A stretch of DNA of 64,000 nucleotides, from contig OZ038460.1 in NCBI GenBank assembly GCA_964036195.1, positions 995,504 through 1,059,503 on the forward strand, in the 5' to 3' direction. The position numbers were made by a program, and so were the translations under genes. The notes beneath the pieces are model-generated. The model saw nothing but the letters and a program-made list of their open reading frames with translations. It did no database searches and was not told the DNA's origin. Each line of letters opens with the position of its first letter. Within the stretch, counting starts at the first letter, position 1. Positions 8,445 through 63,200 of this stretch are shown in pieces. This DNA comes from Sphaerolaimus hirsutus. Taxonomy: Eukaryota > Nematoda > Chromadorea > Monhysterida > Sphaerolaimidae.

Positions 8445-9309
8445 TAAAATAGTACAAAAAGCAGTAATTGCGGTATTTTCTGTGGCTTTTCTAGGAGACC
8501 TTTCTTATTGAAGGACATTTGAAAAGGACACCTTAAAATTCGGATGGAATCTCTGAATAAAGCGACAGCTCTTGTTAAGTGACACGGAAAAACCAAGATG
8601 GAAAGTATCTAATACTTCATTATGAAATGATTAATTATTTACCTATATTTTGCCATTTCAAAATGATGGAAAACTTTTGCGGACAGGAACAGCTTGTAAA
8701 ATCAAGTACAAATGCCTACTTGAATGCCAACCTAATAAAATGTTAAATGAAAATATTAAACGATTATTATCGAGAATATTTTACATTAGTTTCATGAGTT
8801 GATAAATATCGGGATCGACTAATCGATGTCAATTGACACAAAAATTAAATAACTGTCAACTTGAACAAAAACGGAAATAATTGTGGGTGGCGAAAGATAT
8901 TTGATATATTGATAAGTAAATCGTTTTCATCACCACCATAGAAATGTTACTGTGGGCCAGAAACCATCGTAAAAACGCACATTTCGTAAAAATCTGATAA
9001 GGTACATAACTAATATTCACATCAAATCCCATAAATCCCGATGTCTCGCAACTTCAAAAACACATCAAACTACCTAAATAAATAAATAATATACAAACAT
9101 GACATACGTACTGCATCGAAGCGATTTCCGTTGGTGTGGAAACAGCTGTCAATTCAAAAGATCGCTATAGGTAAGCTGCGACCTTTTTGTACTATACATG
9201 GGGGTGGGAAAATAAGTTTTTCAAAATTGCTGCGTGAATAAAATAAAATAGCGTAAAAGTTGTGAGGTGGTGTACTCCGCGGATAGCACAGCATGCACCC
9301 GTACATAAT
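8445..9309. other. Intergenic, nothing recognised
   Basis: AT-rich sequence with no convincing exon, RNA gene or repeat boundary. Confidence 0.4.
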
Positions 9310-21824: not shown

Positions 21825-22590
21825 GGGGTGTAACAAATTGTAGTGTTGTTTTTTCACTGGTTCAAATTTGTATAGTCACTCGAGTTAACCCACTCACACC
21901 CAAATTCATTCAAAAATTTACCATCATCAAATACAATACAACCTTGAATGACTACACCCTGTTGGCCGGGTGAGGAAAAAATCACCCCACTTGAATAACC
22001 CCCCCCCCCTCTGTGATGGGTCGGAAAGATGTTGCAGAAACTAAAATAAGAAACAATCAATGAAGTCAGATAGAAGCATATGCAGGGGTGTAACAAATTG
22101 TAGTGTTGTTTTTTTACTGGTTCAAATTTGTATAGTCACTCGAGTTAACCCACTCACACCCAAATTCATTCAAAAATTTACCATCATCAAATACAATACA
22201 ACCTTGAATGACTACACCCTGTTGGCCGGGTGAGGAAAAAATCACCCCACTTGAATAACCCCCCCTCTGTGATGGGTTGAAAAGATGTTGCAAAAACTAA
22301 AATAAGAAACAATCAATGAAGTCAGATAGAAGCATATGCAGGGGTGTAACAAATTGTAGTGTTGTTTTTTTACTGGTTCAAATTTGTATAGTCACTCGAG
22401 TTAACCCAGTCACACCCAAATTCATTCAAAAATTTACCATCATCAAATACAATACAACCTTGAATGACTACACCCTGTTGGCCGGGTGACGAAAAAATAA
22501 CCCCACTTGAATAACTCCCCCCTCTGTGATGGGTCGAAAAAATGTTGCAGAAACTAAAATAAGAAACAATCAATGAAGTCAGATAGAACA
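21825..22590. repeat. Three tandem copies of a ~257-bp unit
   Basis: Copies begin GGGGTGTAACAAATTGTAG at 21825, 22085 and 22341 and are almost identical. Differences are mainly in the length of a C-run. Each contains CTACACCCTGTTGGCCGGGT. Confidence 0.9.

Positions 22591-26153: not shown

Positions 26154-26155
<2 letters not shown>

Positions 26156-26232
<77 letters not shown>
26156..26232. repeat. (TA)n microsatellite
   Basis: About 38 TA units with one interruption (ACATAT). Copy 2 (about 33798) has only a few, so it is highly length-variable. Confidence 0.95.
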
Positions 26233-26233
<1 letters not shown>

Positions 26234-26397
26234 AATAGCACATACAAAAATAGGTTCGATATAAATACACATAAATATGTCTACATAAATATTTATTCAC
26301 GCATAATACACATATCCGTTTCACGCGGCACTTAAACGTGATGCGCTGTGACATGTGACCCATCCCGCGGTGCAACAACTGCACACAGTCACTGCCG

Positions 26398-26872
26398 CAT
26401 AGTTGTTAAAACGTATTTACGTTTACTCGATTAATACGTATACTCGAGTATTGCGTAATTACGTTTACGTTTCCTCGCGAAAAAATACCGGTACTTCAAG
26501 TGAAAGTACCTTTTTGAATGTAGACGAGTACAGAAAACGTATTTTAGGGGACAGAAAATGTCATTTAGTCAAACAGAAAGTGACAATCATAAGACATTTT
26601 CCTAAGAAATACTTATCAGGAGAGAAAAACACATATTTGATGTATACCAGCTTAAGGATAAAAAAAATTTCTGGACTTTTTCTGTGAGAAAAATACTCAC
26701 TTTTACGTTATTGGTGAGAAAAATGCCCATTTTTACGTTTTCCTCAGAAAAAAACTTCTTTTTACGTTTTCTCAGGAAAAAAGTATTTTACTCACGTTTT
26801 ACGCAATGTAAAAGTATTTAAAAAATACTTTACGTTTACTTTAACAAAAGTTCAGTACGTTTAACAACTCTG
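26398..26872. mobile_element. hAT-like family I element with 8-bp target duplication
   Basis: 475 bp starting CATAGTTGTTAAAACGTATT and ending ACGTTTAACAACTCTG. Exact CACTGCCG flanks at 26390-26397 and 26873-26880. The interior is ACGTTT/CTCGAG-rich and has no transposase. Confidence 0.85.
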
Positions 26873-28059
26873 CACTGCCGAGGTGACAGTATGATTAAGT
26901 CGCGCGCTTGTCAACGTTCTTGGACATTTCTACATTCTTGGACATGTCAACATGCCCGAATGTATTACGTGCAAACGTTGTGATTGTGTCGAGGGAGAAT
27001 GCAGAAAAATGAATGTCAAAAGGAAGAGGTTTCTGAGAAATGCGGTGATCAATATGTGGGAGGGATGTGCAGATTAGAGAATAATGGTGATGTAGTGATA
27101 TACTCTAGCAACGTTACACCTTCCACGCGTGGTTCCCGTTGGAAGCGCGCCAACGCAACTTGAAAAATGTATTGCTGTTAGAACATTATACGTTAACATA
27201 TTCAGAAGAATGACTTTTGAAAAAAAATTTTTACAGAACGTGCATGCTTTAATTGTCATTGGCACGTTTCCAACATAAGACATTAATAACTGCGAGTGCA
27301 GAGTATCAAGCCCGTCGAGTATATCAATGGCGCGACGGCAGTTCAAAATAATGGCGCCAGCGCCATGCCATTTGACGCCTTTTTCTCTGGCGCAAGTAAA
27401 ATTGAATAAAGTGTAAAGAATTGGCGCGTCAGTGAAAAATAAATTGTTTTTAATAAACAATGTAAAACATGTGTCAACACATAAGCAGATGCATTTCCGT
27501 TAAAAATCAAGAACTAAAAGTGTCTATAAAAGTAGCAGTTGGAATGTGTAAAATTTGTTGAAATTTTATACTTTAAAGATCTTTGATAAAGTGTGTGAAT
27601 AGACCTAAATTGAATGCCAAAAATACAGATTGGTCAAGACATTTTCTCATAGTTTGCAAACACAAAACAAATATTTACAACATAGGCATTTTTGTCCGTT
27701 TGAGCGGGAAAGCGGCAGACTAAACATATCAAAAATTTGTAGAGGCGGTGGCATTACGCAACAAAAATTACACCAGACTGAAAAAGATCACAATTTTATC
27801 TCAGAATCGATGAACTTTCCAAATAGGTCACACTATCACAGAGAACAACAAAACATTTGCTGCAGCAGCGAGACAGATGAAATTCCTCTAAAGGCCCTAG
27901 TTGACAGAAACTAGTTGACGGACACCAAATGTCAACTGGTTCCGATCCAAACTCAGAGCTTGCAGACGAGCTGACGAACGACGTTCAAACGAAAAAATGG
28001 CGCTGCACACACTAGTTGACATCTGCCAATGTGACACCGTTCGCAACTCAAGGCACAGA

Positions 28060-28476
28060 TAGTGATGGAAAAGGCACCGGGAAATATGGCACCGCACCGC
28101 ACCGGCACCCGTTCCAGTCCTCAGAAAGGGCACCTGGCACATTGGGCACAAGCAAAAAAATGGCACTGCACTGCACCGCACCGGTAGCTCACCTTCGAAA
28201 AAGGGCACCGCACCAGCACTGGTGCTGGTGCCGGTGGCAGTCCCAAGCCCTGTAAAGTGTAAAGTTAAGTATCAAATGTAAAGTCAAATGCAAAGTAAAC
28301 TGTCAATTGTCATGCAAAGTTAAGTAATAAAATATTTTCTTCTTTGTTTTGATTGACACTTTACTTTGCATTTGACTTTACATTTGACACTTTACTTTAC
28401 ACTTTACAGGGCTTGGGACCGCCCCCTGGTGGCCTTCGGTGCCTAACTCCAGGGCACCGGTGCTTTTCTATCACTA
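28060..28476. mobile_element. hAT-like family F element with 8-bp target duplication
   Basis: Ends TAGTGATGGAAAAGGCACC and GGTGCTTTTCTATCACTA, flanked by exact GGCACAGA at 28052-28059 and 28477-28484. Contains a nested family D insertion (28231-28425) that copy 2 lacks. Confidence 0.85.
28231..28425. mobile_element. Family D foldback element, recent insertion
   Basis: Present here but absent from the matching site in copy 2 (about 36410). Flanked by CTGGTG on both sides. Ends GGTGGCAGTCCCAAGCCCTG and CAGGGCTTGGGACCGCC pair with each other. Confidence 0.8.
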
Positions 28477-29136
28477 GGCACAGAAACGGGCCAATCCAAT
28501 TAAATCGTACGACCTATAAGCATAAGTATAAATACCCTTTACCCAGGTATTACGGGTAAGCGTAAATACGCTTTCACAACTGTGGTAAAATGTCAATCAA
28601 AACAAAAAAGAAAATGATTACTGGACTGAATGACAATTAACACTTATCTTCACATCTGTCATGACAATTGACACATTGCATGACATTTTACATGACATTT
28701 TCGCATAGTTAAAATTTCAAACTTGACTTTACAGTTTACAAGGTGCCTGAGTGTCTGCCCCCAGGTGCCAGTCCCAATGCAGTGTAAAGTCAAGTGTCAA
28801 ATGTGATACAAATTTGTTAATTGTCATGTAATCACTCTGTAAATAAATCATAAAAAACGTTGGGTAAATTTACGTTCCAACAACCACAGTTTATGGACGT
28901 GTCTGATATTTAAGAATTTTCGCAGTCAAGTGCGAAATATCTGCGTTCACACCCGGACTGATAAGTTGAGCGCATTTCATATTTTCGCAGCGTTTTTTAC
29001 AATTCTGAAAACGAAAATAGGCTTTCGACTGAAGGTATTTATTTGTTTGCCATTTGTCGGCATCGTGGCGTTGGCCGCACGGCACGCCTTTCCGGTGATG
29101 TATAGGTATATAAATAATTAAATTATAATATTTTTG

Positions 29137-29802
29137 TACCGTATTTCCCCGAAATAACCCCTCAAAATGGCCACTTAAATTTATTAGCCCCCCCCCCCCT
29201 CGAAATACACCCCCCACCAAATTGAGTGTAATGAGAACATTAATGACAAAACCTGCGATGAATTGTTACGTTAGAACAGTGTTTATGCCATCTAAACACC
29301 TTCCCGGTCACGTCCGGCACCCTATTTTTGATCGTACTTGTGACACCCTATCTCCAGTTCTAGGGCGCGCCAGCAGCTGAAACTTGGGGGAGATATTGGC
29401 GCAACCCCCCTCTACCTCGCATGAATTAGGGGGGTCGCGGCGACCCCCCTACCCTAATTCATGCGAGGTAGAGGGGGGTGGCGCCAATATCTCCCCCAAG
29501 TTTCAGCCTATGCGGCTCCCTAGAACTGGGTATAGGATGTGAAAGTAAAATCAAAAAATGGGTGCCGGACGTGACCGGGAAGGTGTTTACATACTTAGAG
29601 TAGCCCATAGACTCTTATATATAGTGGTTATGGTTGCATTTTCTACGTCTGCGTACGTTACAGACAACAATTTAGTACTGGAATTTCAAAAAAAATTCTG
29701 GCGAAATCATAAGCCCCCACTCGAAATACCAACCCCCTCAAAATTCCCACACTAAAACAATCAAACCGGGGGGGGGGGGGGGGGATTCGAGGAAATATGG
29801 TA
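29137..29802. mobile_element. Inverted-repeat element family B, interrupted
   Basis: TACCGTATTTCCCCGAAATA to TTCGAGGAAATATGGTA. A 293-bp palindromic element splits this copy; the equivalent at about 37115-37480 is uninterrupted. Confidence 0.8.
29295..29587. mobile_element. Foldback element with TA target duplication
   Basis: 293 bp, a near-perfect inverted repeat. AACACCTTCCCGGTCACGTC and its complement form the ends. CCTCTACCTCGCATGAATTA and its complement flank a GTCGCGGCGAC centre. TA lies at 29293-29294 and 29588-29589. The empty site is visible in copy 2 near 37272. Confidence 0.9.
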
Positions 29803-30446
29803 AATACTTCTATAAACCTATATATTGTATTTACCTATATATATATACACAATATATCAATAACTATATATAATGGACAGTCATGGGGGCTACTTCCCTT
29901 CACTTTTCACTTCACTCAACTTGCCATTTGCCACTTGCGCAACCAGCGCATGATTGGCATTCTGCCAACGTGAATCGCGTGTACACAGTATCGAGTAACT
30001 ATTTACATCGTTACAATTGCGATGTCTGCGCGCGCGAGGGACAATTAATCTATAAACAGGAAATCCCCATTTTACATTCAGAAGGAACCAGGAAGTATTT
30101 TCCGAAAATTCGAACAAGGAAGAAAAGTGGTCCCATGGGAGAAAATCGACCGCATTTCAAATATCTTTGTGACCTTCAATCTCTGAAGATTTATTTTCAC
30201 TAGATCGATTCACATTGTGCCTACACACACTAGTTTTCACCGTGACTTCGTGGGAAAACTGAAATTTTTTCAAATGCATTTTAATGAACACCGTTGAATT
30301 ATTTTATTTTATTTGTAATGGTTTTTGGTTTTTTTGGTGTATTGGTTTTTTTGTAATTTTTTGATTTTATCAACGATGACGTCACGTTCGAGGGTTTCCT
30401 CAACAAAAACGCGTACGTGCAGTCGGCGGGGTATACCGACAAAACA

Positions 30447-30646
30447 NNNNNNNNNNNNNNNNNNNNNNNNNNNNNNNNNNNNNNNNNNNNNNNNNNNNNN
30501 NNNNNNNNNNNNNNNNNNNNNNNNNNNNNNNNNNNNNNNNNNNNNNNNNNNNNNNNNNNNNNNNNNNNNNNNNNNNNNNNNNNNNNNNNNNNNNNNNNNN
30601 NNNNNNNNNNNNNNNNNNNNNNNNNNNNNNNNNNNNNNNNNNNNNN
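30447..30646. other. Assembly gap (200 N)
   Basis: Exactly 200 unknown bases, a round number that usually marks a gap of unknown true size. It lies between the two copies of the segmental duplication. Confidence 0.98.
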
Positions 30647-31499
30647 TGATAGATGATGTCAAGCAAAAGTTTTGAATTTCCAAAGAAACGTCTGGAAAAA
30701 AAAATGATTTTTGACTTCAATCAATTTTTTTGTAGGAAGATGGCATTTCCAGATATATGTATGGAAAGAAATTCTTAGTTTCTATGTACGAAGATTCCAA
30801 ATGCACCATAAAAATGGGGCTCAGAATTTTTTATGTGAAAAGTGAATTTTTGTATGGAAGCACCCTTCCAAATTATGTTTAAGAAAAAATGGAGATATAC
30901 AAATGAAAGAACATGTAAAAATAACCCAAGTTTATGATGAAAACTTTTTTCATACAACTTCATCTGAGTCTTCAGAGTGGGCTTGTCTGCGGTGGTGAGA
31001 CGGGTGTCGGGCTGTTTCAAACTGTTGTGGCAAAAATTGGCAGACCTACTTTTTCTATTTTATTTTTGTAAAATAAACTATGCAATTGGGCACAGTTTTT
31101 GCAAAAAAAAGCTAAGCTCTCAATTACAAACTGAAAATTTGATGCCATTTTCAAAATTTCAGCCATCATTTTTGTTGAGAAAAAAACATTTGATGAAACT
31201 AGTTTGTATGGGCCAATTAATCTCCACAACTTTCCACATAAAAATACAAAATATTATATTGATAGATAAAGTCAAAGAAAAGTTATGAATTTCCAAAAAA
31301 CAGCCTGAAAAATGGTGACTTTTGACTTTGATCACTTTTTTCAGTAGGAAGATGACATTTCCGGATATATGCATGGAAGGAAATTTTAAGTTTCTAGTTA
31401 TGGAGATTCCAAATCCATGAAAAAAAACGCAAAAAAATTTTTTGTAACAGGAACAAAATAGGCATGTTTGGTTCTTAGGCGAAGCGAGTCTTAAGTTTT
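30647..31499. repeat. Tandem ~610-bp repeat next to the gap
   Basis: About 30645-30830 and 31255-31440 share long near-identical text (GAATTTCCAAA, GGAAGATG, CATTTCCRGATATATG, GGAGATTCCAAAT) in direct orientation about 610 bp apart. This suggests a satellite array that continues into the gap. Confidence 0.65.
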
Positions 31500-32547
31500 T
31501 AAATTTCATTCAAGCGACCATGTAAACACAATTCTGCACAAATTTTATGAAAAATTTACAAAATTTGAACAAAAAAGTTAACAAAAATTTGAATTTTTGA
31601 TACAATTTTTATACTTTATTTTCAAACTTTTACTTTAGGTGGTTTATTCTTCAATTTTCCATTTTAAATTTTTGTTCCGAGATTTTGCCAACCCCAATCA
31701 TGATCTGCACGCAAAACGTATTGTGGATGGAGTCAAATCTAAATTTAGAAATTTATGCGCATCGTGCATTTTTATTTATGTAGTGTCCAGAATTTAGAAT
31801 ACACAATAGGAATGCATGCGATTTGCGTATAAATATTTGACATTGACACAATGGAACATAAGTTTCCGCTCTCTTCAAATTTGCGGAGATTGTGTAAAAA
31901 CCCACCTCGAATGATATTTTCATGTAAAATGGCATGTGGAACCAGTGCCAGGCAGGTGCCAGTCCCAAGCCCTGTAAAGTGTAAAGTCAAGTGTCAAATG
32001 TCATATTTACAAATTTGTCAATTGTCATGCAGTGTCAATTGTCATCACGCAAAGTTCAGAAAAACTTTTTTGTTTTTGTTTTGATTGACATTTTACATGA
32101 CATTTTACACCTCACTTTACTTTTTACAGGGTTTGGGAGAGCTCCCAGGTGACTATCAGCGGTTTTTTTATTATTTATTATACATTAGACAAGTTTGTGA
32201 AATTTTACAACAGGTCCCATCTCAGGATTTAGGTGAAAAAGGTATATTTAAGGTATAAAAAACCTTTTTTGTTGTGCTTATTTGTTGTGTTGAGCATCGG
32301 TTGAATGCTCACACAATGTGCCCGCACACTAGTTTTCAGCTGAAATTTTCAAAACTCATAAATCAACCTTGAACGCGCTTGAGTTTTCAGTTTTTTCTCT
32401 CCGTCAACTGTAGTTAACAGAAATCTCATTGTGGTGAACTCAAATGCATTTAAAGCTGAAGTATTATTTTTCCAAATTTTTCCAAGGTTCCACAACTAGG
32501 AGACGTCAGTGTCAATATCAACTGCCAGTCATTCACTTAAAATGTAG

Positions 32548-32851
32548 ATACCGTATTTGCTTGAATAGTTTCCCCCCCTCGAATAATCCCCCCCTGTAAG
32601 ATGAGTGAGGAAATAATAATCCCCCCCTCGAATAATCCCCCCCCCCTTAAAGATATTTTATCAATTAGTTGTGCTAAGTTTCAACAAAAATGGCACGTTT
32701 TTGTGTTAAAAATGTATATTTCGTGAAATGACTTGGCAGAAAGATGCTTGAAAATTCTGACGAAATAATGATTCCCCCCTTGAATAATACCCCCTCAAAA
32801 AAGTCTGACGAAATAATAATCCCCCAGGGGGATTATTGAAGCAAATACGGT
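32548..32851. mobile_element. Inverted-repeat element family C
   Basis: TACCGTATTTGCTTGAATAG to TTGAAGCAAATACGGTA, with repeated GAATAATCCCCC units. Absent from the matching place in copy 1 (about 25091). Confidence 0.8.
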
Positions 32852-33971
32852 AGGTATTTTTCGTAAGTTTAGCGCCATGGCGCATCAAGCAGTTCTAAAT
32901 ATAACAAAACTATGATTTATCGAGAGAATATTCATTGCAAAAAATAGATGTGAGAAGCACTGTAAAGTGCCGTGAAGTGGCTTTTTACAGACGTGCGGTT
33001 TCAGCTTTTGCGGTGAAGACACTTCTGTGTGCATCCGGACGCTGCACGACGCTCCACAAACCATGCAAAGTACCCACCATATTTAATCGAATTACCCCCT
33101 CGAGGAATTAATTTTTGTCAGACTTTTTGAGGGGGGACTATTCCAGCGGGGAATGATTATTTCCTCACTCGTCGAACAGGGGAGTTTTTCAAGGGAAGGA
33201 ATTAGGTATTCAAGACGGGGGAATTATTCGAGTAAATACGTTATGCTGCAATGGTTCGTGCAGTGCGCTTCACGAAATTTGTCCTGGCGATGCTAGGCGA
33301 AGTGTGCGGAAGACACTTCACCTCAAATCTCGTGAAACGTGTGGAACTGCCTTCACAGAGGCCACTTCCGCACGCTTCACGGTCATTCGCAGCGATTTTC
33401 CATCACACATGGAAGTGAGATGAAACATGACGAAACATTTCACCAAAGTGAAACGCCTGGACTTTGGCGCTAAGCGCCATGAACTTTCTCCGAACCACAG
33501 CTGTCGCCAAGCGACAGAAGCACCATGGCGCTTTTTGCTTTGACGCTGGTGCCAAGCGTTTTGCCACGCAAAAATAGCGCCAGGCGCCAAAAAAGGCAAA
33601 AAAATGGCGCCAAGCGCCTTGGCGCTTTTCCATCTTCACCGAGGGATGTACTTCATGGCATAAATTGCGCATCAATTTTTTTCTCTACTTTTTGATCTTG
33701 TAGTTTGAAATAAAAAATAAGCAGTGAAAAATTGTACCCCCGTGTACCTCTGTACGCATCATACAATGGAACAAGTCTCCAAAGGTATAATTATAACTAT
33801 ATATATAAATAGCACATACAAAAATAGGTTCGATATAAATACACATAAATATGTCTACATAAATATTTATTCACGCATAATACACATATCCGTTTCAGGC
33901 GGCACTTAAACGTGATGCGCTGTGACATGTGACCCGTCCCGCGGTGCAACAACTGCACACAGTCACTGCCG

Positions 33972-34441
33972 CATAGTTGTTAAAACGTATTTACGTTTAC
34001 TCGATTAATACGTATACTCGAGTATTGCGTAAATACGTTTACGTTTCCTCGCGAAAAAATACCGGTACTCAAGTGAAAGTACCTTTTTGAAAGTAGACGA
34101 GTACAGAAAACGTATTTTAGGAGACAGAAAATGTCATTTAGTCAAACAGAAAGTGACAATCATAAGACATTTTCCTAAGAAATACTTATCAGGAGAGAAA
34201 AACACATCTTTGATGTATACCAGATTAAGGATTAAAAAAATACGACTTTTTCTGTGAGAAAAATACTCACTTTTAGGTTATTGGTAAGAAAAATGCCCAT
34301 TTTTACGTTTTCCTCAAAAAAAACTTCTTTTTACGTTTTCTCTGGAAAAAAGTATTTCACTCACGTTTTACGCAATGTAAAAGTATTCAAAAAATACTTT
34401 ACGTTTACTTTAACAAAAGTACAGTACGTTTAACAACTCTG
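33972..34441. mobile_element. hAT-like family I element (copy 2 partner)
   Basis: Same insertion as 26398-26872. The left flank is CACTGCCG and the right flank ACTGCCG, one base lost. Confidence 0.8.
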
Positions 34442-35571
34442 ACTGCCGAGGTGACAGTATGATTAAGTCGCGCGCTTGTCAACGTTCTTGGACATTTCTA
34501 CATTCTTGGACATGTCAACATGCCCGAATGTATTACTTGCAAACGTTGTGATTACGTCGAGGAAGAATGCAGAAAAATGAATGTCAAAAGGAAAAGAGGT
34601 TTCTGAGAAATTCGGTGATCAATATGTGGGAGGGATGTGCAGATTAGAGAATAATGGTGATGTAGTGATATACTCCAGCAACTTTACACCTTGCACGCGT
34701 GGTTCCCGTTGGAAGCGTGCCAACGCAACTTGAAAAATGTATTGCTGTTAGAACATTATACGTTAACATATTCAGAAGAATGATTGAAAAAAAATTTTTT
34801 ACAGAACGTGCATGCTTTAATTGTCATTGGCACGTTTCCAACATAAGACATTAATAACTGCGAGTGCAGAGTATCAAGTCCGTCGAGTATATCAATGGCG
34901 TGACGGCAGTTCAAAATAATGGCGCCAGCGCCATGGCATTTGACGCCTTTTTCTCTGGCGCAAGTTCGTCAGTGAATAATAAATTGTTTTTAATAAACAA
35001 TGTAAAACATGTGTTAACACATAAGCAGATGCATTTCCGTTAAAAATCAAGAACTAAAAGTGTCTATAAAAGTAGCAGTTGGAATGTGTAAAATTTGTTG
35101 ATAAGGTGCGTGAAATTTTATACTTTAAAGATCTTTGATTAAGTTGTGAATATACCTAAATTGAATGCCACAAAAACAGATTGGTCAAGACATTTTCTCA
35201 TGGTTTGCAAACACAAAACAAATACAACATAGGCATTTTTGAAAGTTTGAGCGGGAAAGCGGCAGACTAAACATATCAAAAATTTGTAGAGGCGGTGGCA
35301 TTACGCAACAAAAATTACACCAGACTGAAAAAGATCACAATTTTATCTCAGAATCGATGAACTTTCCAAATAGGTCACACTATCACAGAGAACAACAAAA
35401 CATTTGCTGCAGCAGCGAGACAGATGAAATTCCTCTTAAGGCCCTAGTTGACACAAACTAGTTGACGGACACCAAATGTCAACTGGTCCCGATCCAAATT
35501 CAGAGCTTGCTGACGAGCTGACGAACGACGTTCAAATGAAAAAATGGCGCTGCACACACTAGTTGACATCT

Positions 35572-36203
35572 GGGGCCAGATTTAATACTCCCTACAGATT
35601 TGTAGGGTAGGGCGTACGCCCGACAGATTTTTTAAAGTTTAGCCGCATCGACGCACATGCACCGAGAGCAAGGCGGTTCGTAAAATATACGAAACCATCC
35701 TTTAAGGTTGCCGATATTGCAATATGACGTATATCACTTCGATTTTGGCCCGGAAATCACGATTTCGTCATTTCTTGGCCGTCTGCCACTTCGTTTTTTA
35801 TTTTATTTTGTCGGGCGGGTTACTCGCATAGGTCGCGCTTTTGTGTAGTCAGGTGGTCACTTTTTTAGTGTTCACTGTCTGCAACCGAAACCACGAGGGC
35901 AGCGACAAGAAAGAAATGCATACACGAGCGTACAAAAGCGCGACTTATGCGAGTAACCCGCCCGACAAAATAAAATAAAAAACGAATTGGCAGACGGCCA
36001 AGAAATGACGAAATCGTGATTTCCGGGCGAAAATCGAAGCGAAATACGTCATATTGCAATATCGGCGACCTTAAGGGATAGTTTCGTGTATTTTATGAAC
36101 CGCCTTGCTCTCGGTGCATGTGGGTCGATGCGGCTGAACTTTAAAAAATCTATCGGGCGTACGCCCTACCCTACAAATCGGTAGGGAATATTAAATATGG
36201 CCC
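35572..36203. mobile_element. Long foldback element, present only in copy 2
   Basis: About 632 bp with ~300-bp arms. GGGGCCAGATTTAATACTCC at the left mirrors GGAATATTAAATATGGCCC at the right, and GCCGATATTGCAATATGACG mirrors its complement further in. Copy 1 has the uninterrupted site at about 28030. It has no convincing coding frame. Confidence 0.85.
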
Positions 36204-36238
36204 GACAATGTGACACCGTTCGCAACTCAAGGCACAGA

Positions 36239-36459
36239 TAGTGATGGAAAAGGCACCGGGAAATATGGCACCGCATCGCACCGGCACCCGTTCCAGTCCT
36301 CAGAAAGGGCACCTGGCACAATGGGCACAAGCAAAAAAATTGCACTGCACTGCACCGCACCGGTAGCTCACCTTCGAAAAAGGGCACCGCACCGCACCAG
36401 CACTGGTGCTGGTGGCCTTCGGTGCCTAACTCCGGGGCACCGGTGCTTTTCCATCACTA
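36239..36459. mobile_element. hAT-like family F element, uninterrupted partner
   Basis: 221 bp, TAGTGATGGAAAAGGCACC to GGTGCTTTTCCATCACTA. Exact GGCACAGA duplications at 36231-36238 and 36460-36467. Confidence 0.85.
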
Positions 36460-38492
36460 GGCACAGAAACGTGCCAATCCAATTAAATCGTACGACCTAT
36501 AAGCATAAGTATAAATACCCTTTACCCAGGTATTACGGGTAAGCGTAAATACGCTTTCACAACTCTGGTAAAATGTCAATCAAAACAAAAAAGAAAATGA
36601 TTACTGGACTGAATGACAATTAACAATTTACTTCACGTTTGTCATGACAATTGACACATTGCATGACATTTTACATGACATTTTCGCATAGTTAAAATTT
36701 CACACTTACTTTACAGTTTACAAGGTGCCTGAGTGTCTGCCCCCAGGTGCCAGTCCCAATGCAGTGTCAAGTGTCAAATGTGATACAAATTTGTGAATTG
36801 TCATGTAATCACTCTGTAAATAAATCATAAAAAACGTTGGGTAAATTTACGTTCCAACAACAACAGTTTATGCACGTGTCTGATATTTAAGAATTTTCGC
36901 AGTCAAGTGCGAAATATCTGCGTTCACACCCGGACTGATAAGTTGAGCGCATTTCATATTTTCGCAGCGTTTTTTACAATTCTGAAAGCGAAAATAAGCT
37001 TTCGACTGAAGGTATTTATTTGTTTGCCATTTGTAGGCATCGTGGCGTTGGCTGCACGGCACGCCTTTCCGGTGATGTATAGGTATATAAATAATTAAAT
37101 TACAATATTTTTGTACCGTATTTCCCCGAAATACCCCCTCAAAATGGCCACTTAAATTTATAAGCCCCCCCCCCTCGAAATACACCCCCCACCCCCAAAT
37201 TGAGTGTAATGAGAACATTAATGACAAAACCTGCGATGAATTGTTACGTTAGAACAGTGTTTATGCCATCTACATACTTAGACTAGCCCATAGACTCTTA
37301 TATATAGCGGTTATTGTTGCATTTTTCTACGTCTGCGTACGTTAGAGACGATAATTTAGTACTGGAATTTCAAAAAAAATTCTGGCGAAATCATAAGCCC
37401 CCCTCGAAATACCCCCCCCCTCAAAATTCTCACACTGAAACAATCAAACCGGGGGGGGGGGATTCGAGGAAATATGGTAAATATAATATGGTAAATACTT
37501 CTATATATACTCGGCGTACATGATACTCTGCCCTCTCACTCATTTATGTCTCACGTTGGAAGCGTGCCAATGATGATAAAGCATGCGGTTTTTGTAAAAA
37601 AAGATGAAAAAATCATTGTTGTGAATAAGTTAACGTATAGCGTTATAACAGAGCTGGCTTTTATCAACTCTTCATGAGAATCGCATGCGTAAAAAATCGT
37701 TGGCACGCTTCCAGCGGGAACCACGCGTGCAGGGTGTAAAGTGACTGCAGTATACCTATATATTGTATTTATATATATATATATACACAATATATTAATA
37801 ACTATATATAATGGACAGTCATGGGTGGATAGTTCCCTTCACTTTTCACTTCACTCAACTTGCCATTTGCCACTTGCGCAACCTGCGCATGATTGGCATT
37901 CTGCCAACGTGAATCGCGTGTACACAGTATCAAGTAACTATTTACATCGTTACAATTGCAATGTCTGCGCGCGCGAGGGACAATTAATCTATAAACAGGA
38001 AATCCCCATTTTACATTCAGAAGGAACCAGGAAGTATTTTCCGAAAATTCGAACAAGGAAGAAAAGTGGTCGCATGGGAGAAAATCGACCGCATTTTGTA
38101 CATCTTTGTGACCTTCAATCGCTGAAGATTTATATTCACTAGTCATTTATATTCACAAGATCGATTCACATTGTGACAATTTATCCAAAGCGTTCGCATC
38201 TAGATCCAATATTTATACCTATACTCGGCGGACCGTAAAGAATTCATCCAAAATTACTTATGTCTCTTCGATAACACGCCAGCTGAATACTTATGTCTGA
38301 TTAACTTACACAAAAAAAAATGTTGAAAAAAGGCGGAGTCGAGTGCAAGCATCGATTGTCTTCTTCCCAAAAGTTTTTATCTTTTTTTCGTTTTTTTTGT
38401 AATTTTTTGATTTTATCAACGATGACGTCACGATCGAGGGTTTCCTCAAGAAAAATGCGTACGTGCAGTCGGCGGGGTATACCGACAGAACA

Positions 38493-51200: not shown

Positions 51201-54200
51201 ACGTATTGAGTAAATTTGTCACTCAAAATACTGGGTAAGTTCAAGTGTACTTCACTTTGTCACTCAAAATACTGGGTAAGTTCAAGTGTACTCCACTTAT
51301 CACTTTTCTTTTCTGTAATACACTTGCAGCTTCGCTCAAGATAAAATCACCCTCAAAAAGTCGCCCATTCCAACAAACCCCAAAACCACCCCTCAACCAC
51401 TTTTGCACTCACCCCCAGTAGCCTGCTGTTGCGCTGCGGCACCCCCAGCCGCGGCACTACCGTAACCATACTGTCTGCTACCGTAACCAGCCGAATTCAC
51501 ACCGCCGCCCATTGGCACCGTGCCAGGTGGCGCTGTACTCCGGGGTGGCGTAGTGCGTCGCTGGGAAGCCGCGGAATTTCCGTAAGCGACGGGGGGAGGG
51601 GGGCTGCGGGCGGCCCTCTCTGGGGGGTACTCGTCTGTAGCCATCGGTGCCCATTGGCCCGATTCTGGGGGGTGGGGGGTTGCGCGGGTATTCGAGTGTG
51701 ATATGTGTTGACAACAATCTCTGGGAGATTTATATTTAAAGATACCAGAAAATACCAAAAATATAAGATTTTTATACTTATATTTTTTCCAAGATTTTCG
51801 AGGATTAATTACATTTTTGAGCGATTTTTCATGATTTACATTAATATCAGAAAATAAAATAAAAATTTAATATTCCGCTGAATACTCGAATTTTATAAAG
51901 ACAGACTCAGAAATCTAGAGAAATATTATCTCAAGACAACATAAAAAAAACGTTCGACCAACCATTATTGTAGGCATCGCCGCCGCGTTCGTCGCGGTCT
52001 GAAAAATTGATTAAAATAACCAAATGTTCAAATTATAGTTGGAAAATACAAGTGCTGATCCGCACTGTAAAACTATTTATTATCTACATGACCCAGGGCC
52101 AAAAAAAATACATAAAAACCAAATACCCACACCCACCATAAGCCTCGCCATAATCATAACCCCTTTTCCTGGCCGGCGCAGCATTACCATAATCCATTCT
52201 ACCGTAACCCCTGCTGGCCCTTTCCCTGCCCGCATTGTACTCATCAGCATTACCGTAAGCGGAGCTACCGTAATCCCTGCCGGAATAAGCCCCCCTGCCG
52301 CCCCTAGCGCCCCGGGGGGATTTATTTGGGTACGATCCGCGGCCGCCCCCTCCGCGGTAGTAGGCGGTCAGGCTGCGGGTGCTGTAGGTTAAGTTGCTGG
52401 ATGGGAAATGCTGTTTAATGACCCTACAGACAGTAGTTGATTAGGACACCAGGTGCCAGTCCCAGACCCTGTAAAAAGCCCTGTAAAATGTCAAATGTCA
52501 TGCAAAGTGTCAAAAGTCGCGGAAAATGCCCTGCAAAATGGCAACTCGGTTGCTATTTTGCAGGGCCTTTTACATGATTTTGACACTTTGCATGACATTT
52601 GACATTTTACGGGGCTTTTTACAGGGTCTGGGAGTGCCCACAGATGTCAACTGGTTCTCATCCCAATTCAAAGCTTGTTGACGTGCTACGCTAGGAATTA
52701 TTGTATACACATTTACTCCTTGTCGGGCCGTGTACTTTGCACATACCGCAATATATTATTTTTCTCAACGTCACAGCAACATGATTCAACACTTTTGCAT
52801 TTGAGCGTAATTCATCGGCTACTCGGCAAGCTTTGAATTGTAAACGAAACCAGTTGACATTTGGTTTCCTAGTCAACTAGTTGTGAAGGCTTGAGAGTTG
52901 ACTTAAATTTGCCACTTGACGGGGTATTCACAGCATGCGAGATTATGAGAATTCGTTTGAAATTGGTTGAACACAGAGTGACAATGGAGAAAGGAACAAA
53001 CGCCTTGAAGAGCCCCACTCTTTCTGCCGGTCCCAATAAAAATGTATATATATTTATATTCGAAATGAAAGTCATCGGAAAACGAAAATAATGTATGAAA
53101 AAATGAACACCCCATTCTAGATTTCGCTTGAAAACGAGATTCAAATTCAAAATACTCCCAGAAAAACCCGTCAACTATAAAATCCCATCAAAAACCAAAA
53201 CAACCGTCACCCACCTAGCCCTGGCGCCCCTGGCCCCCCTTGGCGCCATGCCAGCTCCCCTGCCGCGACCCCCAGAAGGGGGTCCACTGAAAGCTGGCGC
53301 TATCATGCCCTGGCGCCTGGCGCCCAAATTTGACGATGACCCCCGTGGGGTGTGCTGGGAGCTGCTTTCTTTCCTGTGGGGGGGGGGTTAATGGGGGTTG
53401 TTAATTTGCGCGTGCAAACTAAGGTTTGCAAAAGAAGGTTTGCAAAATGATTACGACAGAGGAGGCACTCATTTTTATCAAGAACACGTGTTACTGGTTG
53501 CGTTATTGGCATCCTGTAATTTTGTAAATGCGATTTTATATAACCAAAGGAGTTTCGCTCGTTGTGTTGTTATTTCATCTCTTTCATCATATCATTTCAT
53601 TTTTCATGTTCAAAATTTAGCTATCTATGAAGTTTAGCGATTGCGCCATCAGGACCCATGATCGACCGAGGTGTCGCATCTGTTATATAATTGATTTTCA
53701 TTCCAAAAAATTGCTGCAAAAACGAAATTTTTGCCGTTACAAAATAACCGCGTAAACAAACGCCGCCATGTACAGCGGCGAAAAGTCTTAGCGCACACAA
53801 ACGCCCAGCGCAAGTCATTTACCTTCAATGCTCCAGCTATCTATCACGAGGCAAATTTTTGGGCTACTATACCTCGAACCCCCCCCCCCCCCCGCCTAAA
53901 ACCACAATATCATCACCGATTCAACCCTACCTCAGCCCTACCGACCTGCTCTTTTTGATGCGGGCCGCGCCCTCCCTCCTACTACTTTCCCTGTGCCTTT
54001 TCCTGCCGCTGCGGCGGCGCTTCCCATCCGAATCGCTGCTCGACGAGCTGTAGGATCTGTGCCGTTTGCTGTGTTTGGCGCCGGATTCCTTGCTTTTCGA
54101 GTGGTGTCTGGGTGGGAATGGGTACTTTTGTGTGGGTTTTTAGGGTGTAGGGCTCGTGTAGGATTGGAAACAAGTGCTTTGATTGAAACCAGATTTTTCA

Positions 54201-57200
54201 AACAATCTTCATTGTCAATCTGTACGCGAAACTTACGCGTGCGCGCAAAAAAATGTGAAATACCTAGACTTGGAAAAAAAACGTTTTTTTTTAACTCGAT
54301 GTTTTTTTTTTAAAAAAAACGTTTTTTTTAAAAAAAAAACGTTTTTTTTTAAAAGCTCCCAGATATGACCTAGTGTCAACATATATAGGTATATCAGACA
54401 CTGGCAATACTCTGTGATGTTAAATATGACCATATAATGGCTGTGGAGCCATGGGATAGCATTATAAGTGGTGATTTGTGTCAAAAATATCCATTTTTCG
54501 TCGACATATCGTTCGTATATCGCCTTATAGTCGAATGTTCGTGACATCAGGTAAAGTTTGGCACGGAATGGTGATCAAACAAGGTTATAAAAGGAGGTTG
54601 TTACTTTGGGAGTGAAGTTACACACTGTGGAGGTACATGGAAGCACATTACCTCAATATTATATATTACAGCAACATATGTCGGCTTATTCACCCATGGT
54701 AGCACATAGAAATGGATGTTTTGATACTAAAAATGCAACAAAACCAATGAAAACAACCACCAATGTCAATTTGTGTGTGAAATTGCGCGCTTGCGCGCAA
54801 AAATTTTGCAAAATACCTAGTGCTTAGTACTAAAAATTTCGGCCGATGTTTTTTTTTAAAAAAAAACATTTCGGACGTCATGTTTTTTTTTAAAAAAAAA
54901 CGTTTTTTTTTTAAAAAAAACGTTTTAAAAAAAACATCGGCCAACCCTAGAAATACCTAGTTGCATGTCCACCCTGATTTTTAAAAAATCAGTTGATAAA
55001 ATCGAGTGTCATCACTAGTTGTGAGGTGAAAGTTGCGCGGTACTTTTGCGTATGCAAAAACGGCTTTCCAAATTTCAGGTGTGGTTTAAAATTTTTTTTC
55101 AAAGGTTCGTGGGAAATTTCAATGCAGTGGAAATCTTTGTAATGGAATTTGAATTCCAAATCCCAAATTTGACAAAATGTTTATTTAAGTGACAAGTGCA
55201 TGATAGTAAATCACTCGAATTTCGCAAAAAGATAAAAAAGAAAAATTATTATACTGATTTCCCTACATTTCTAGTACTCAAAATGAAGAAAAAAACCGCA
55301 GCCCACAATTTAAAACAAAGATACCAAGCTTTATCAAACGCACTTTTTCTCAACATTCCTCTTTCTATCAGCGCTACCGTAACCAGACGATTGCATGCCC
55401 ATGTTATTAGCAGAATTTCCTCCAGCCACATAATAACCCTGACCTCGACTGCTACCGTAATCTGCCGACTGCATCTGCTGCTGCTGGTTACCGTAACCCT
55501 GGTAATTGGACATGTTGCTGTTGGCGGCTGGGTCCATAACTTCCCCTGGCATGTTGCCACCGCTACCGTACATACGCGTTCTGAAAATACATATTTAGAA
55601 TATACATAAAAAAATAAAACTTAAACACTTGAACACACTATACTTGATCCCTTTTAAAAATACTTTCACCGCAAACACAGTTAGGCAGCTGTCAACTAGT
55701 TTCGGCACTGATTCAAATTGTAGTTGACAGGTAGAAGAAGAATGTTCAAATGCACATCGGCAATATTGATTAAAAAAATATATTACGGCACGGCATAAAA
55801 CATCATTCTGCAACCCGTCAACTAGAACGAAATGTAAACGAGTTGACACTCAGAACCAACCCGTCAACTATGCACACTAGTGGGCAGAGAACATTTTTAG
55901 AACTGAGAAATCAGTTTTAAACAGGAATGAAGCCGGAGAGTGAAACCGGAATTTCTGGAAACAACAGTAATTGACGGGCTCCTCGTTCCAGTCAACTCAA
56001 ATGTGCTTGGAAATCTCAACTGTCAACTAAAGTGGGCCAAAACATCAACCCCCCCCCCCACAACTGACTGTTGCTGCTGCAGGGCCAAACTTTGCTGCTG
56101 CAGCTGAATGCGCTGCTGCTCCAACTTCTCCCGCTCCAACTTGATGCGCTCCTTCTCCAATTCCAGCTGCAGCTGCTCCTTGCGCATCAACGCGGTCATG
56201 TTCCCCCCGCCCGAGTTGACGCCCATTTCCTGCAGTTGACGGGGGAATTAGGATGTTTAGAATGGAGATTGAGTTTTCAGAAAAAGATTTTTTATGGCTG
56301 AAAAGATTATAGTACGGATCAAGAATAAATCTCCGGCCGTAGACACACACGACACTTTACACAAAATGTCAACTGGTTCCCATCCAAATTTGAAGCTTGC
56401 TGCAGGGGTTGAGTAGTGGGGGGGGGTTGGGGGTTACCCCCCCCCAAAAAAAAAAAAAATCCGCCAGCTATCTATCTATCCCAGCGGCAAATTTTTTGGC
56501 TATTATCCCCTAAACACCCCCCCCCCAAATCGTCCAGCTATCTATCTATCTGGAGCGATTTTTGAAAAAATTCAAAATCGCGAATTTTCGTACCTTTTTA
56601 TACTTTTTCACCTCCAAAATCGTTCTTGTTCATTATCGCCTATTTTGATACCCTAGATAAAACTCTGATTTGACCGTGTTTTTTTCTTCAAACAATCTTC
56701 ATTCAACAATTTTTTATAATCTTAACTAAATTTTAAAAAAACAGTCGAAATAATCACGCCTATCCGCCCACCTGCTGGTGCATTCTTCCCGCACTACCAT
56801 AAGCGGAAGGAGACACTTGTTGCGCGGACATTTGCCGGAGATTTGAGGAGGCGGCACTCGACGCCGCATAGGCGGAGTAGGAGAGACGGGAGCTGCCCCC
56901 GCGCCGCGGCGGCGGGTAAATGCCCCTCGTGCCCTGGGCGGGGGGGATTATTTCAAGTTTCAAGTTTTTCGCGACCTAGTTGAGAAAATGCTTACTGCAT
57001 TCACTTGCGTACTAAAAATTTGGTACTAGCGTCAAGGTAAACGTAGGTAAACGCCACAGAAAAATGGCACCAAGCACAAATAGCGCCAGGGTAATTTTTG
57101 TCTGGGTCTGGCCCCGTTTCAGCGCGCAGGATTTCAGCAAACTGGCTGGTTTTCCGCCGTCATTAAAAATCCCACCACAAAAAAATCACTGTAAAACCCC

Positions 57201-60200
57201 TTGCACTAACCCTAGACCCCCTGTAAGCTCCTTGCGGGGTATATGTCTCGCTGGGGACCCCCCTGTCCCTGGCCCCAGCCAGCGGCACCTGCGACAGGCG
57301 AAACGTGCTCTTACCGCGACCGGGCGCACGCCCACCGTAATCAGCCGCACTTCCGGTACCGGTATCGGTGTCGGCAGGTGCGCCGCGGTACCTGTGAGGG
57401 CGGGAAGAGATTTTTTCGATGGTGATTTTTTCATATTGAAGGTGTATTTAAATATGTACTTTCTCCTAATGAGTGCTAACAGTATTTACAAAAAAAAATG
57501 GTGCCGGGCATTGGAAACGATATCCAAAATTTGAGCAAATAAATAAGATAAATTCTCAATTCGCGTGTAAACACATGGAAACTTTGGCTACTTGCCAACA
57601 GTGTTCAAATGGAAAATCATCGTCTCAGAATTAGCCACTTATTTGACCTTCGCTGAGGTGCATATCAATGGTATTTTACTAATCTGAATAAATAGATATC
57701 TGAAAATTTTGGGGGGCCAGAAAACGTGCAAAAAAATAACAACAGACAAGCTTATTTGCATATGCAAAACCAAAGTGCGTAAAAATATACCTGCACAAAA
57801 CGAGTCATCTGATCGCAATACAGATATTTAAAAAGCTGCTCTGTTATTCGCGGTGACGCTTTTTCCCCGCGGCTAGTGAAAAAATGACAATAGGTGTAAA
57901 TTTCCCTCCCTTTTTGCCGCTTGTTTTCAATGCTTTTTACATCTACCGTATTTCTTCTATTAGAACAACACACCTATACACAACACAACTCCTATAGAAC
58001 GGCAAGTTTTGACACGTTTTTGCGCTCACTAAAACAATAGAACGGCACGTAGAAATTACATTTGGAAGAGTGCCAAACAAAAACTTTAAAAAATGAATGG
58101 CGATTCAAAGCAGTAAAAATATTGATATTAAATATCAAATAGGATCTCTGCTGATATTAAAATTTTGCTTGAGTTTCATTAAAAACAACGTGTTCAAATG
58201 AAAAATGTCAAATTAACGAAAAAAATTAGAACGGCACCTCCAATAGAACGTCACGTAGAAAAGTTGACGAAAAAATAGAAATGCGCTCTTCTATTAGAAG
58301 AAATACGGTACATCATTCCCAGTGTGCCACAGAAATGCAATGAAAAACCGCAGAAAAAGCAAAATAATGAAACATAACATTACACTGAGGTACGCGCGCA
58401 ACGGAATGTCTCAATAAAAGCTTGGCTGGCAATATGAAAATATTTTTCAGAGGCACCTATCTGCCAGAGACTAAAAACGTTCAACATAAATCGTAAATTT
58501 AAAAAATCTACTGGCGGCCAAAAATTTGAAAATTTGGACATTGGACTAATGCCAAAGTGTAGCTAATATGTGCACAAACTGGGAATATCACTGTGAAAAA
58601 ATTGCACGGAAATTAAATTTGAGCGGATATCAACCACACATTTTAATAAACTATTATGTAATCCTCACTAGCTATCAACTAACTCACTTCTCTAAAAGAT
58701 CACGATTAAATTGCGAACGAAAAAAAAACGACGCAAAAAAATTTGAATGATAAGCTGATGACATTCGATCCACAACACACGTGGATCGATGTTTATTTAT
58801 TCTACGCAAATCGTAGTAAAAAACAGCTGCCTTACAAACAAATTGCAATGTGAGTGCTATATTGTGTAACACAATCCGCGGAGAGTGACTAGGCGCGAAA
58901 TTTGAAAAGCCAAGTACATACACTCCTGGAAAAATGTCTTTATCCTCCTGATCGGGAACAAAAAAATTCAATGTCTCCCCTGCTAATGTGCGACCCGCGT
59001 TGGGATATATATGGTATGAATTCTTGTAGATAAAGGTGCCTTTATGCCACATGTCGATTTTTAGCGTTCTAGGTGCTCTGCTGCTCGTTTGACAGCGATC
59101 CAAAGTCAAATTTCCGGTGGAAAAAAGTCTTTATCCCTTATGCTAAAACGTTTAAACAAAGACGAAAACATGGTAAAACGATGAAAAAGACTGCAATGCG
59201 ATATAAAAAAACGATGCACTGCTCGAATGTTTCTCACTTTGCCTATCTGTATTCAAAATAGTATACGCAGTGGACTTGATACTCTGCACTTGAATTGATT
59301 TCGCATCATATTCAAAATCGTCTGCCATCGGTTGGCAGACAAATATCGACCCGGTATGGTGCGTATTTTTGAATTTATGAACAGAACGAAATGTTGGCAC
59401 CATGCCAGCTCACGACTGCGCGCATTAAGCGAAATGTAAAAAAGCAAGAAAAAAATCGCAGACGGCACTGCGTTCACGGTTAACGATATATTGACTATAT
59501 ATGCACTAGGGGGGGCATATTTCTACTGTGGGGGATTGACATAATTACCCCTCCTATGTATGAGTTTCACCCCTCAGTGACCCATATTTAATGTTTGATT
59601 CACCATTGAACCAAAAAAGTCAAAGGGATAAAGACATTTTTCTAGGAGTGCGTTTTTTCCGTCGGGTAGCACGGGTGATTGGGGCCATACACGCTAGTTG
59701 ACATTGGCACCAAATGTCAACTGGTTCCCATCCCAATTCAAAGCTTGCTGAAGAGTAACACTTCGCATTATTGTATTTACCGTATTTGCTTGAATAATCC
59801 CCCTGCGGGATTATTATTTCGTCAGACATTTGAGGGGGAACTATTCGAGGGGGGGAATTATTCAAGGGGGGAATTATTACTGCGTCAAAATATTCAAGCA
59901 TGTTTCCATCAACTCATTTCACGAAATATGCTTCATAAACACAATAACGTGCCATTTTTGTTAAAATTAGGTATAACAAATTAATCAAATCTTTAAAGGG
60001 GGGATTATTCGAGGGGGGATTATTATTTCCTCACTCGTCTTACAGGGGGGGGGGGATTATTCGAGGGGGGAATTATTCAAGGGGCTAACTATTCAAGCAA
60101 ATACGGTATACGCATATACTTCATGCCGGCTTTGTACATTGCGCATTACCGCAATATTTTTTCACCGCTACAGCTTAGGGTTGGCCGATGTTTTTTTTTA

Positions 60201-63200
60201 AACGTTTTTTTTTTTTTAAAAACGTTTTTTTTTTTTTAAAACATAACGTCCGAAATGTTTTTTTAAAAAAAAAAACATCGGCCGAAATTTTTAGTACTAA
60301 GCACTAGGTATTTTGCAAAATTTTTGCGCGCAAGCGCGCAATTTCACACACAAATTGACATTGGTGGTTGTTTTCATTGGTTTTGTTGCATTTTTAGTAT
60401 CAAAACATCCATTTCTATGTGCTACCATGGGTGAATAAGCCGACATATGTTGCTGTAATATATAATATTGAGGTAATGTGCTTCCATGTACCTCCACAGT
60501 GTGTAACTTCACTCCCAAAGTAACAACCTCCTTTTATAACCTTGTTTGATCACTATTCCGTGCCAAACTTTACCTGAAGTCACGAACATTCGACTATAAG
60601 GCGATATACGAACGATATGTCGACGAAAAATGGATATTTTTGACACAAATCACCACTTATAATGCTATCCCTTGGCTCCACAGCCATTATATGGTCATAT
60701 TTAACATCACAGAGTATTGCCAGTGTCTGATATACCTATATATGTTGACACTAGGTCATATCTGGGAGCTTTTAAAAAAAAACGTTTTTTTTAAAAAAAA
60801 ACGTTTTTTTTATAAAAAAAACGTTGTTTTTTTAAAAAAAACATCGAGTTAAAAAAAAACGTTTTTTTTCCAACCCTACTACAGCTACATTTTCAACACG
60901 ATCAAACAATTTTGCATTCGAACGTTTTCGTCGGTATGAATGCAAGCATTGAATTGGGACCGCATACAGTTGACATTCAGTTGACAGTTCATGTCGATGT
61001 CAACTAGCGTGTGTGGCGCCATTGCCATTAGCATAAATAAATGTCATTTTCATAGGCGTATGTGATTTTTGAATGCCATATAATATTTGGATGGCATTTT
61101 TCTTATTGATAAGGGTGTCAAGAAGTTTTTATATAAAACGGAAATTGAAAAAAATGTTACTCTTGCCGGAAAATGGGAACGGTAATTTTTTTGCACTTGC
61201 TGGATAACGCAAAACAGACAAATGAAATGCCAGAAAATGGAAAACGGGAAGCAAAATTTATATGGAAACGGGAAAAATAGCAGAAATTTTGCTGCATACG
61301 GAAAAGCTTCACAATTGAAAAACTGGAAAATGGGGCGGAAAATAAAACATAAAATTAGCCGGAACACGGAAAAAGGCGAAGAAAAAAAAAACAAGAAAAA
61401 ACTGCCGGAGAACAGAAAATTGGGTCGATAACAAACGATAAAAATTTCCGGAAAACCAGAAATGAGCCGGAAAAACGGAAACGAAAAAAATTTAGTGGCC
61501 GGAAATCGGAACAAAATTGCGTTCGGAGAAACCGAACAGTTGACACCCTGGTTCTGATTATTTGATGAAGAAATCAGGCGCATTTCACCAAAAAACAGGC
61601 ATTCAAAATTCTGGCACTTTGTGCGAAATTTTGGCATTTTGTCGCAAAAATTGCATACTCACGTGAAATATCGTTTCCCAATACAAATAAAAAAAACAAA
61701 TTCATCACACACAACCCAAAATGTCAAAATCAAAACCCTGAAAAGTAAACAAAAAAACTCAAATCTCAAACATCAAAAGCCACACCGACCTATTACTCAG
61801 GGCGACGGCTGCGGCACGAGCGCGCCCCCTAGGACCCCCGGCGCCCAGTGCCGCGCGCCTGAAAAAAAATATTTTTTTTCTTTTTTTTATCGATGTGACT
61901 TCACACATGGTCTTAAACTAGTGATGGAAAAAAAACCCAGGGGAATGGCGCCACTGCGCCACTCGCAAAAAAACAGCGTGCTTGGAGCGCCATTTTTGAA
62001 GGGAACGGATAAGGGCGCCATGGCATTTTTTAAGGAAATCTAGCGACGGGTGCAGTGCAGCCTTTGGCGCTATCTCAATACTATTTACTTACAAATTTTG
62101 TCATGTGCATACTCCACGGACCGAATGCCATGCATGCTTCTGAATTAAACACTGCATGATAGGTCATCGTTAATAAAATTTAAGAAAATTTGAGAAAAAC
62201 TTTTCACGAAAAAAACATTCGTCGCTTAGACGACTCCACCTTTTTCTTTTTAAATACTTTTTTTTCATTTTTGTGAAAGTGAGTGCATAAGTATCCCGCT
62301 GGAGCGTTATCGACTAAGACACAAGTAATTTTCGACGCATACTTTGCGGTCCGCCGAGTATAGACGTCGCACTTACCTGCTCTGCAACGCCAATCTAGCC
62401 GCGTAACTCATACTAGTTCCCATTCCACCTCTATACCCCCCGGCATTGTAACCACTCGACTGCACGTAGTACGGCCCTCCCCCTCTAGCGGGGGCGATGC
62501 CGCGACCCCCCCTCAGACCCCTCGGCACCCCCCTGTACCCCCTGGGGGTGGGCGCGGACAATCGGCCGGTGTGGGGGGTGTGCGGCAATTTCGATCTGGG
62601 CGGGGGCTTTGATAGGGCCGGCTTTGAACGGTTCCTTATTCGCTCCCCCTCGCCTAGGGAGCCGGCTGGGGATGCTGCGGGGGGGGGGGGGTAAATTTTT
62701 TTTGGGGGGGGGGGTAAATTTGGGGGTGGTATTTTGGGATGGGATAAGGGAAATTAATTTCTGTAAATTGTACGGTAAATTACCAATACGTTTTCACATA
62801 TCTACCGATCTTGGAAAAACAACGTTGGAAGTTCGACGTTAAAGGCGCTGCAAAGCAACCGAGTACATAAGAGCTAAAATTTCGAATGAAATTATCGGAA
62901 ATTTGTCACTTTACAGCAGGGGTTTAGTAGAGGGGAGTTGATGGGGGGGGGGGGGTTACCCCACCAAATCCGCCAGCTATCTGTCTATCCCAGAGGCCCG
63001 CTCAGCTATCTATCTATCACGGAGGCAAAAATTTTGGCTACTATCCCTTAAACCCCCCCCCCCCCCAAATCGTCCAGCTATCTATCTATCTGGAGCGACT
63101 TTTGAACATTTTTCGCCAGTTTTCGCTCAAAATCGAAATTTTTTGTACCTTTTTATAGTTTTTCACCTCCAAAATCGCTAGTTCATGTTCATTATCGCCT

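Follow-up and report, generated by a model that had tools for sequence, protein, structure and literature searches.

Opposite-facing copies of an abundant, putatively hAT-type MITE around four predicted exons of a SAFB-like gene in Sphaerolaimus hirsutus

Introduction

Inverted Alus are drivers of circular RNA formation in primates, and the locus considered here raises the question of whether a comparable geometry, built from a different kind of element, should be read as a functional device. The window, a stretch of 64,000 nucleotides from the nematode Sphaerolaimus hirsutus (contig OZ038460.1 of assembly GCA_964036195.1, positions 995,504 to 1,059,503), holds two similar elements in introns of a predicted gene with a run of exons between them, and a preliminary description took the arrangement for a candidate circular-RNA or exon-skipping cassette. 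Does the locus call for a dedicated cassette, or would ordinary transposition suffice? Unless another locus or contig is named, coordinates are those of the window.

Results

The left arm (54265..54949, plus strand, 685 bp) and the right arm (60176..60878, minus strand, 703 bp) align plus/minus at 659 of 699 positions with 20 gap columns. These are the exact ends of what had been described as near-identical elements of some 0.7 kb in opposite orientation; the alignment suggested at that time returns an identity of 94%. Within the internal 480 nt the two arms differ at 3 positions. Of the 18 inverted pairs that a repeat search of the window lists, this one comes first (650 nt ungapped at 94%), and a comparison of the window with itself shows no other inverted pair that exceeds 400 nt. 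By target site duplication (TSD), termini and core, each arm is a full-length copy of one element. The left arm is flanked by GAAATACC (54257..54264, partner 54950-54957) and the right arm by CTACAGCT (60168..60175, partner 60879-60886), both perfect over 8 bp; the earlier description of the arms as transposons is correct. The termini of the left arm are TAGACTTGG (7/9) and CCAACCCTA (9/9), and those of the right arm score 9/9 at both ends. Because the TSDs differ, the arms are separate insertions: two independent copies of one hAT-type MITE. The left copy inserted into an older and diverged relative of the element's own subterminal region (54200..54264, plus strand); the stretch 54200-54354 matches 54751-54915 at 70%, and the older relative matches the right arm as well, at 69%.

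High similarity alone might have suggested a single segment that was duplicated and inverted, or else an artefact of assembly. Both were rejected on the differing TSDs, and we regard either origin as having a negligible probability, given that the flanks of the two arms differ too, that the alignment between the arms halts where the element ends, and that none of 40 candidate places scored is a second full copy of the interval 55000-57400. When these 40 places were searched for a haplotig or paralogue from which an insertion is missing, the locus itself was likewise the sole full match; the remaining 39 correspond to a repeat of about 250 bp near 56391-56648, which may have masked weaker matches.

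Elements of the hAT superfamily typically produce 8-bp target duplications and have short ends of the TAGGG type. The present family ends in TAGGGTTGG...CCAACCCTA. In the right arm, as in 28 of the 30 loci examined from this genome, each end agrees at 9/9; the exceptions, each at one end, are the left arm (L001, 7/9) and L017 (8/9). A perfect 8-bp TSD flanks 29 of the 30 loci, the left arm included, and the right arm besides, while that of L018 is imperfect (6/8) and lies within a G-run. L022 and L026 carry an identical TSD and are probably a single insertion that was copied later. The element is accordingly classed here as a hAT-type MITE, an assignment made from TSD length and terminal inverted repeats (TIRs). 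The genome contains 28 places with a hAT dimerisation domain, and inspection of eight of these, with 1.5 kb on each side, did not find an autonomous partner; one of the domain places (L034) has CCAACCCTA downstream and is otherwise without similarity to the element. Open reading frames that touch the arms encode 100-137 aa.

An 81-nt internal stretch of the element, searched with up to 3 mismatches, has 2147 places in the 348 Mb genome (1087 forward and 1060 reverse), or about 6 copies per Mb, against 0 matches for the same pattern reversed. No viral contig contains an exact match to a 26-nt core pattern of the element. Across 31 aligned copies the 480-nt core shows 0-6 differences from the majority; the left arm has none, the right arm 3, and L028 also 3. 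As the arms are near-identical to many other copies, both insertions are recent, and a long-kept function is in turn less likely.

The gene that received these insertions was considered from its predicted domains. A genome-wide profile search places a SAP domain on the minus strand at C16:1084738-1084839 (Pfam E 4.4e-9), and an RRM lies on the minus strand at L039:3419-3784 (Pfam RRM_1, E 8.4e-13); both are on the strand that carries the window's exons and lie upstream of the window, the SAP domain farther up than the RRM. After the RRM, the exons of the window read by eye as K/S-rich, RG-rich, Glu/Arg-helical and GY-rich. Eight open reading frames close to the RRM gave nothing over the curated Pfam cut-off, nor did the helix exon have a Pfam match, and the best 60 of 71 matches of the RRM in the PDB include numerous RRM proteins but no SAFB entry. 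A published account gives the architecture of SAFB proteins as SAP, RRM, a C-terminal coiled coil, an Arg/Glu-rich region and an RG/Gly-rich region (PMC9958909), and by this domain architecture we take the host gene to be SAFB-like. Order and strand suggest that all these exons form one gene of approximately 37 kb or more. An open reading frame with a BTB domain lies on the opposite strand between the SAP and RRM exons (L040:8561-8863).

All exons are predictions from genomic sequence. A ten-exon model that spans 63606 to 52137 is free of stops, and each of its exon borders shows AG/GT. Between the arms, on the minus strand, lie an RG-rich exon of 181 nt (57211..57391), an exon of 162 nt (56772..56933), an exon of 161 nt coding for a Glu/Arg/Gln helix (56069..56229) and a GY/Q-rich exon of 237 nt (55344..55580), each with AG/GT borders and an open frame. 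The earlier count of four exons, summing to 741 nt and reading through in frame, therefore agrees with the model, as does the phase of 2 at both flanks; removal of the 247 codons, the Glu/Arg helix among them, would keep the frame. The next exon downstream is K/S/R-rich (53946..54107, minus strand, AG/GT borders, open frame). Upstream, the RGG-rich exon at 62377..62674 (minus strand, AG/GTAAGT borders, open frame) had been taken for the immediate neighbour, but a probable RG/A-rich exon of 69 nt (61790..61858, minus strand, CAG/GT, phase 2 to 2, open) sits between 62377 and the right arm and likely holds that position instead. This probable exon falls outside the arm-to-arm interval; with it as the upstream neighbour, a simple skip junction would be 61790-to-54107. 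The phases of the ten modelled introns are 1,1,2,2,0,0,2,2,2,2. Since 17 of the 45 intron pairs share a phase, in-frame skipping is unremarkable in this gene. Scans of the window for Rfam families (at the gathering threshold) and for tRNAs gave no match.

Exclusivity of the bracketing pair is ruled out by further copies just outside the window, in what seems to be the host gene as well. Three of these fall in the interval from the SAP exon to the window: one on the minus strand, interrupted by about 250 nt and with a TSD of 7/8 (L039:8032-8939); one on the plus strand with the TSD GTAAGGGT (L040:3618-4321); and a core match of 88% on the plus strand (L053:937-1403). What appears to be a single host gene thus contains at least five copies, three plus and two minus, which yield six opposite-facing combinations, and the bracketing of exactly four exons is consequently one of several possible brackets. 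The starts of a second opposite-facing pair in the gene are 5.6 kb apart. Older relatives of the element, at 67-80%, occur in L053 and L041.

How often such geometry should arise was estimated for this MITE family. Given 2147 genomic places of the 81-nt stretch, and presupposing random placement, about 39 opposite-facing pairs are expected at a start spacing of 5911 bp (5.9 kb) or less. Neighbour spacing was taken from 100 exact copies among the matches listed, all on contig C1. Neighbours closer than 6 kb among these numbered 6 direct and 0 inverted, where about 1.05 of each are expected, and those closer than 20 kb numbered 17, of which 7 were inverted and 10 direct. The surplus of direct pairs could have local duplication as its cause, and the random model may overstate the number of close inverted pairs.

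Complementary repeats are present in both of the predicted flanking introns. The arms alone have predicted folding energies of -193.7 and -175.1 kcal/mol, and joined they reach -1120.4 kcal/mol with 665 base pairs between the arms; the gain upon joining is -751.6 for the arm pair, compared with -7.1 when one shuffled version of one arm is used. The left arm lies 394 nt from the donor at 55344; the distance between the right arm and the acceptor at 57391 is 2784 nt. The genome also encodes ADAR-type catalytic exons (A_deamin, E down to 3.2e-25) at C1:1503535-1509749, which by their motifs we presume to be ADAR rather than ADAT1. A double-stranded-RNA-binding domain was not found beside them in the one upstream open reading frame scanned (L048:7044-7439, no Pfam match).

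Discussion

We consider it highly probable that the locus consists of two independent and recent insertions of a high-copy hAT-type MITE, in opposite orientation by chance, each in a different intron of one SAFB-like gene. In the pre-mRNA they may pair, and editing, skipping or back-splicing might follow in a small share of transcripts as a neutral by-product; no dedicated cassette or selected function would be required. The arrangement was correctly seen in the preliminary description and is ordinary, as chance alone would give such geometry. With roughly 39 close inverted pairs expected under random placement, a minimum of five copies in what appears to be the host gene and equal phase in 17 of its 45 modelled intron pairs, the proposal of a cassette finds no support as a function, although as a by-product RNA it is possible. 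What does stand of the proposed pairing is that transposons face each other and that their 665 predicted base pairs make effects on splicing or editing physically possible; that four exons between them happen to be in frame is no evidence of a cassette.

If the pair had been kept for a regulatory effect on the protein, exerted by skipping the four exons or making a circle of them, the loss of 247 codons that include the Glu/Arg helix, with the frame intact, would be a fitting outcome; but with arms so close to many other copies that their insertion is recent, with equal phase so common in this gene, and with five or more copies present rather than two, we hold selection of this kind to be very unlikely. 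A lesser claim is that the pair drives a measurable circular RNA (741 nt, four exons), an in-frame skip isoform, or both, with no function required. The strong predicted duplex between the arms and the mere 394 nt from the left arm to its donor favour this, and there is precedent in a five-mammal study, where young transposon dimers occur in the introns that flank circular RNA exons and many circular RNAs are seen as splicing by-products of genes with young transposons, a view that argues against their widespread functional conservation (PMC8516420). Set against it are the 2784 nt that separate the right arm from its acceptor, the other copies in the host gene that could compete for pairing, and a report that assigns 69-72% of the human circular RNAs conserved in mouse to the class in which introns are long and inverted Alus distal, though it allows that proximal ones are important for a subset (PMC7819710). 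On balance a measurable product of this type is possible, if rather unlikely.

It is slightly more probable, albeit still doubtful, that the paired copies are edited from A to I by ADAR, which would weaken the duplex and limit any effect on splicing. The ADAR-type catalytic exons and a predicted duplex that is long and near-perfect speak for editing, and the lack of a double-stranded-RNA-binding domain in the single upstream reading frame speaks against it. Given a strong predicted duplex and a deaminase of this type in the genome, back-splicing or editing at a low level is plausible.

The identity of the host gene invites one further idea. SAFB proteins are described as suppressing, in human cells, the exonization of intronic transposable elements, including adenosine-biased Tigger DNA transposons (over 33% adenosine in Tigger1); in mice and flies they are described as repressors of active elements (PMC10901741). 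A SAFB-like protein could conceivably act upon its own pre-mRNA with MITE pairs as the sensor, such that at low SAFB the paired copies would promote either skipping or back-splicing of the helix exons, and a gene that suppresses transposons would regulate itself by means of transposons. The adenosine share of the arms on the pre-mRNA strand (33% and 36%) is near the Tigger1 figure and favours the idea; three purine-rich 5-mers that were counted number 0 and 1 in the arms and disfavour it, and no other observation at the locus speaks for it. We give self-regulation of this kind very little credence. In any case, the locus illustrates that, after a recent MITE burst, facing repeats around in-frame exons easily arise by chance, and with some two thousand near-identical copies this genome would offer a good natural test of how often inverted pairs of DNA transposons, as opposed to SINEs, cause circular RNAs and editing.

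In comparison with known systems, the element resembles MITEs of the hAT superfamily in its 8-bp TSDs, its short TIRs that start with TAGGG, and its short, high-copy and homogeneous character; it differs in that its autonomous partner was not found at the 8 of 28 places inspected. The host gene has the SAP domain and the RRM of the SAFB/SLTM family, followed by what read by eye as its Arg/Glu-rich helix and RG/Gly-rich tail, in the same order and on one strand, whereas it is known from predicted genomic exons, and its long introns hold several transposons. Closest in geometry are the inverted Alu pairs around human circular RNA exons and ADAR sites, which are likewise opposite-facing, young, abundant and non-autonomous elements in flanking introns that form a long RNA duplex, here a predicted one. 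Unlike Alu, the present element is a putative DNA-transposon MITE of hAT type and not a SINE, is known here from genomic sequence alone, and occurs at the density of copies per Mb given above.

Results and Discussion

The hAT-type MITE family to which the left and right copies belong is very homogeneous, and a whole-genome search matched an 81-nt stretch of the element at 2147 places; together, these observations suggest a recent burst of the family. Among the first 100 exact copies listed on contig C1, all six neighbouring pairs less than 6 kb apart were direct and none was inverted, where about one direct and about one inverted would be expected. Two copies on another contig, C16:16520306 and C16:16528099, have one TSD in common and look like the products of a local duplication. 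The left copy is itself nested within a related element that is older and has diverged from this MITE (window 54200-54264). A second abundant repeat occupies window 56391-56648, inside one of the bracketed introns (2337 first-look candidates, 40 of them scored).

Elsewhere in the window, a long minus-strand ORF of 554 aa at 1225-2889 has a match to the reverse transcriptase profile RVT_1 (E 1.6e-28) and probably derives from a retrotransposon. Positions 23994-30203 and 31491-38142 form a direct duplication in multiple blocks, which are 77-96% identical and whose starts lie about 7.2-8.2 kb apart, and a tandem array of three 256-bp units lies at 21825-22588 (97% matches). Exactly 200 consecutive N fill 30447-30646, which may be either an assembly gap or sequence that was withheld.

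Upstream in the putative SAFB-like host gene, a plus-strand BTB-domain ORF (8561-8863 of the fetched locus L040) lies between the SAP and RRM exons on the opposite strand to them, apparently as a nested gene. Finally, the deaminase-like ORFs of two further loci, L046 and L047, carry HVE or HPE in place of the usual HAE, and they are perhaps inactive ADAD-like genes.
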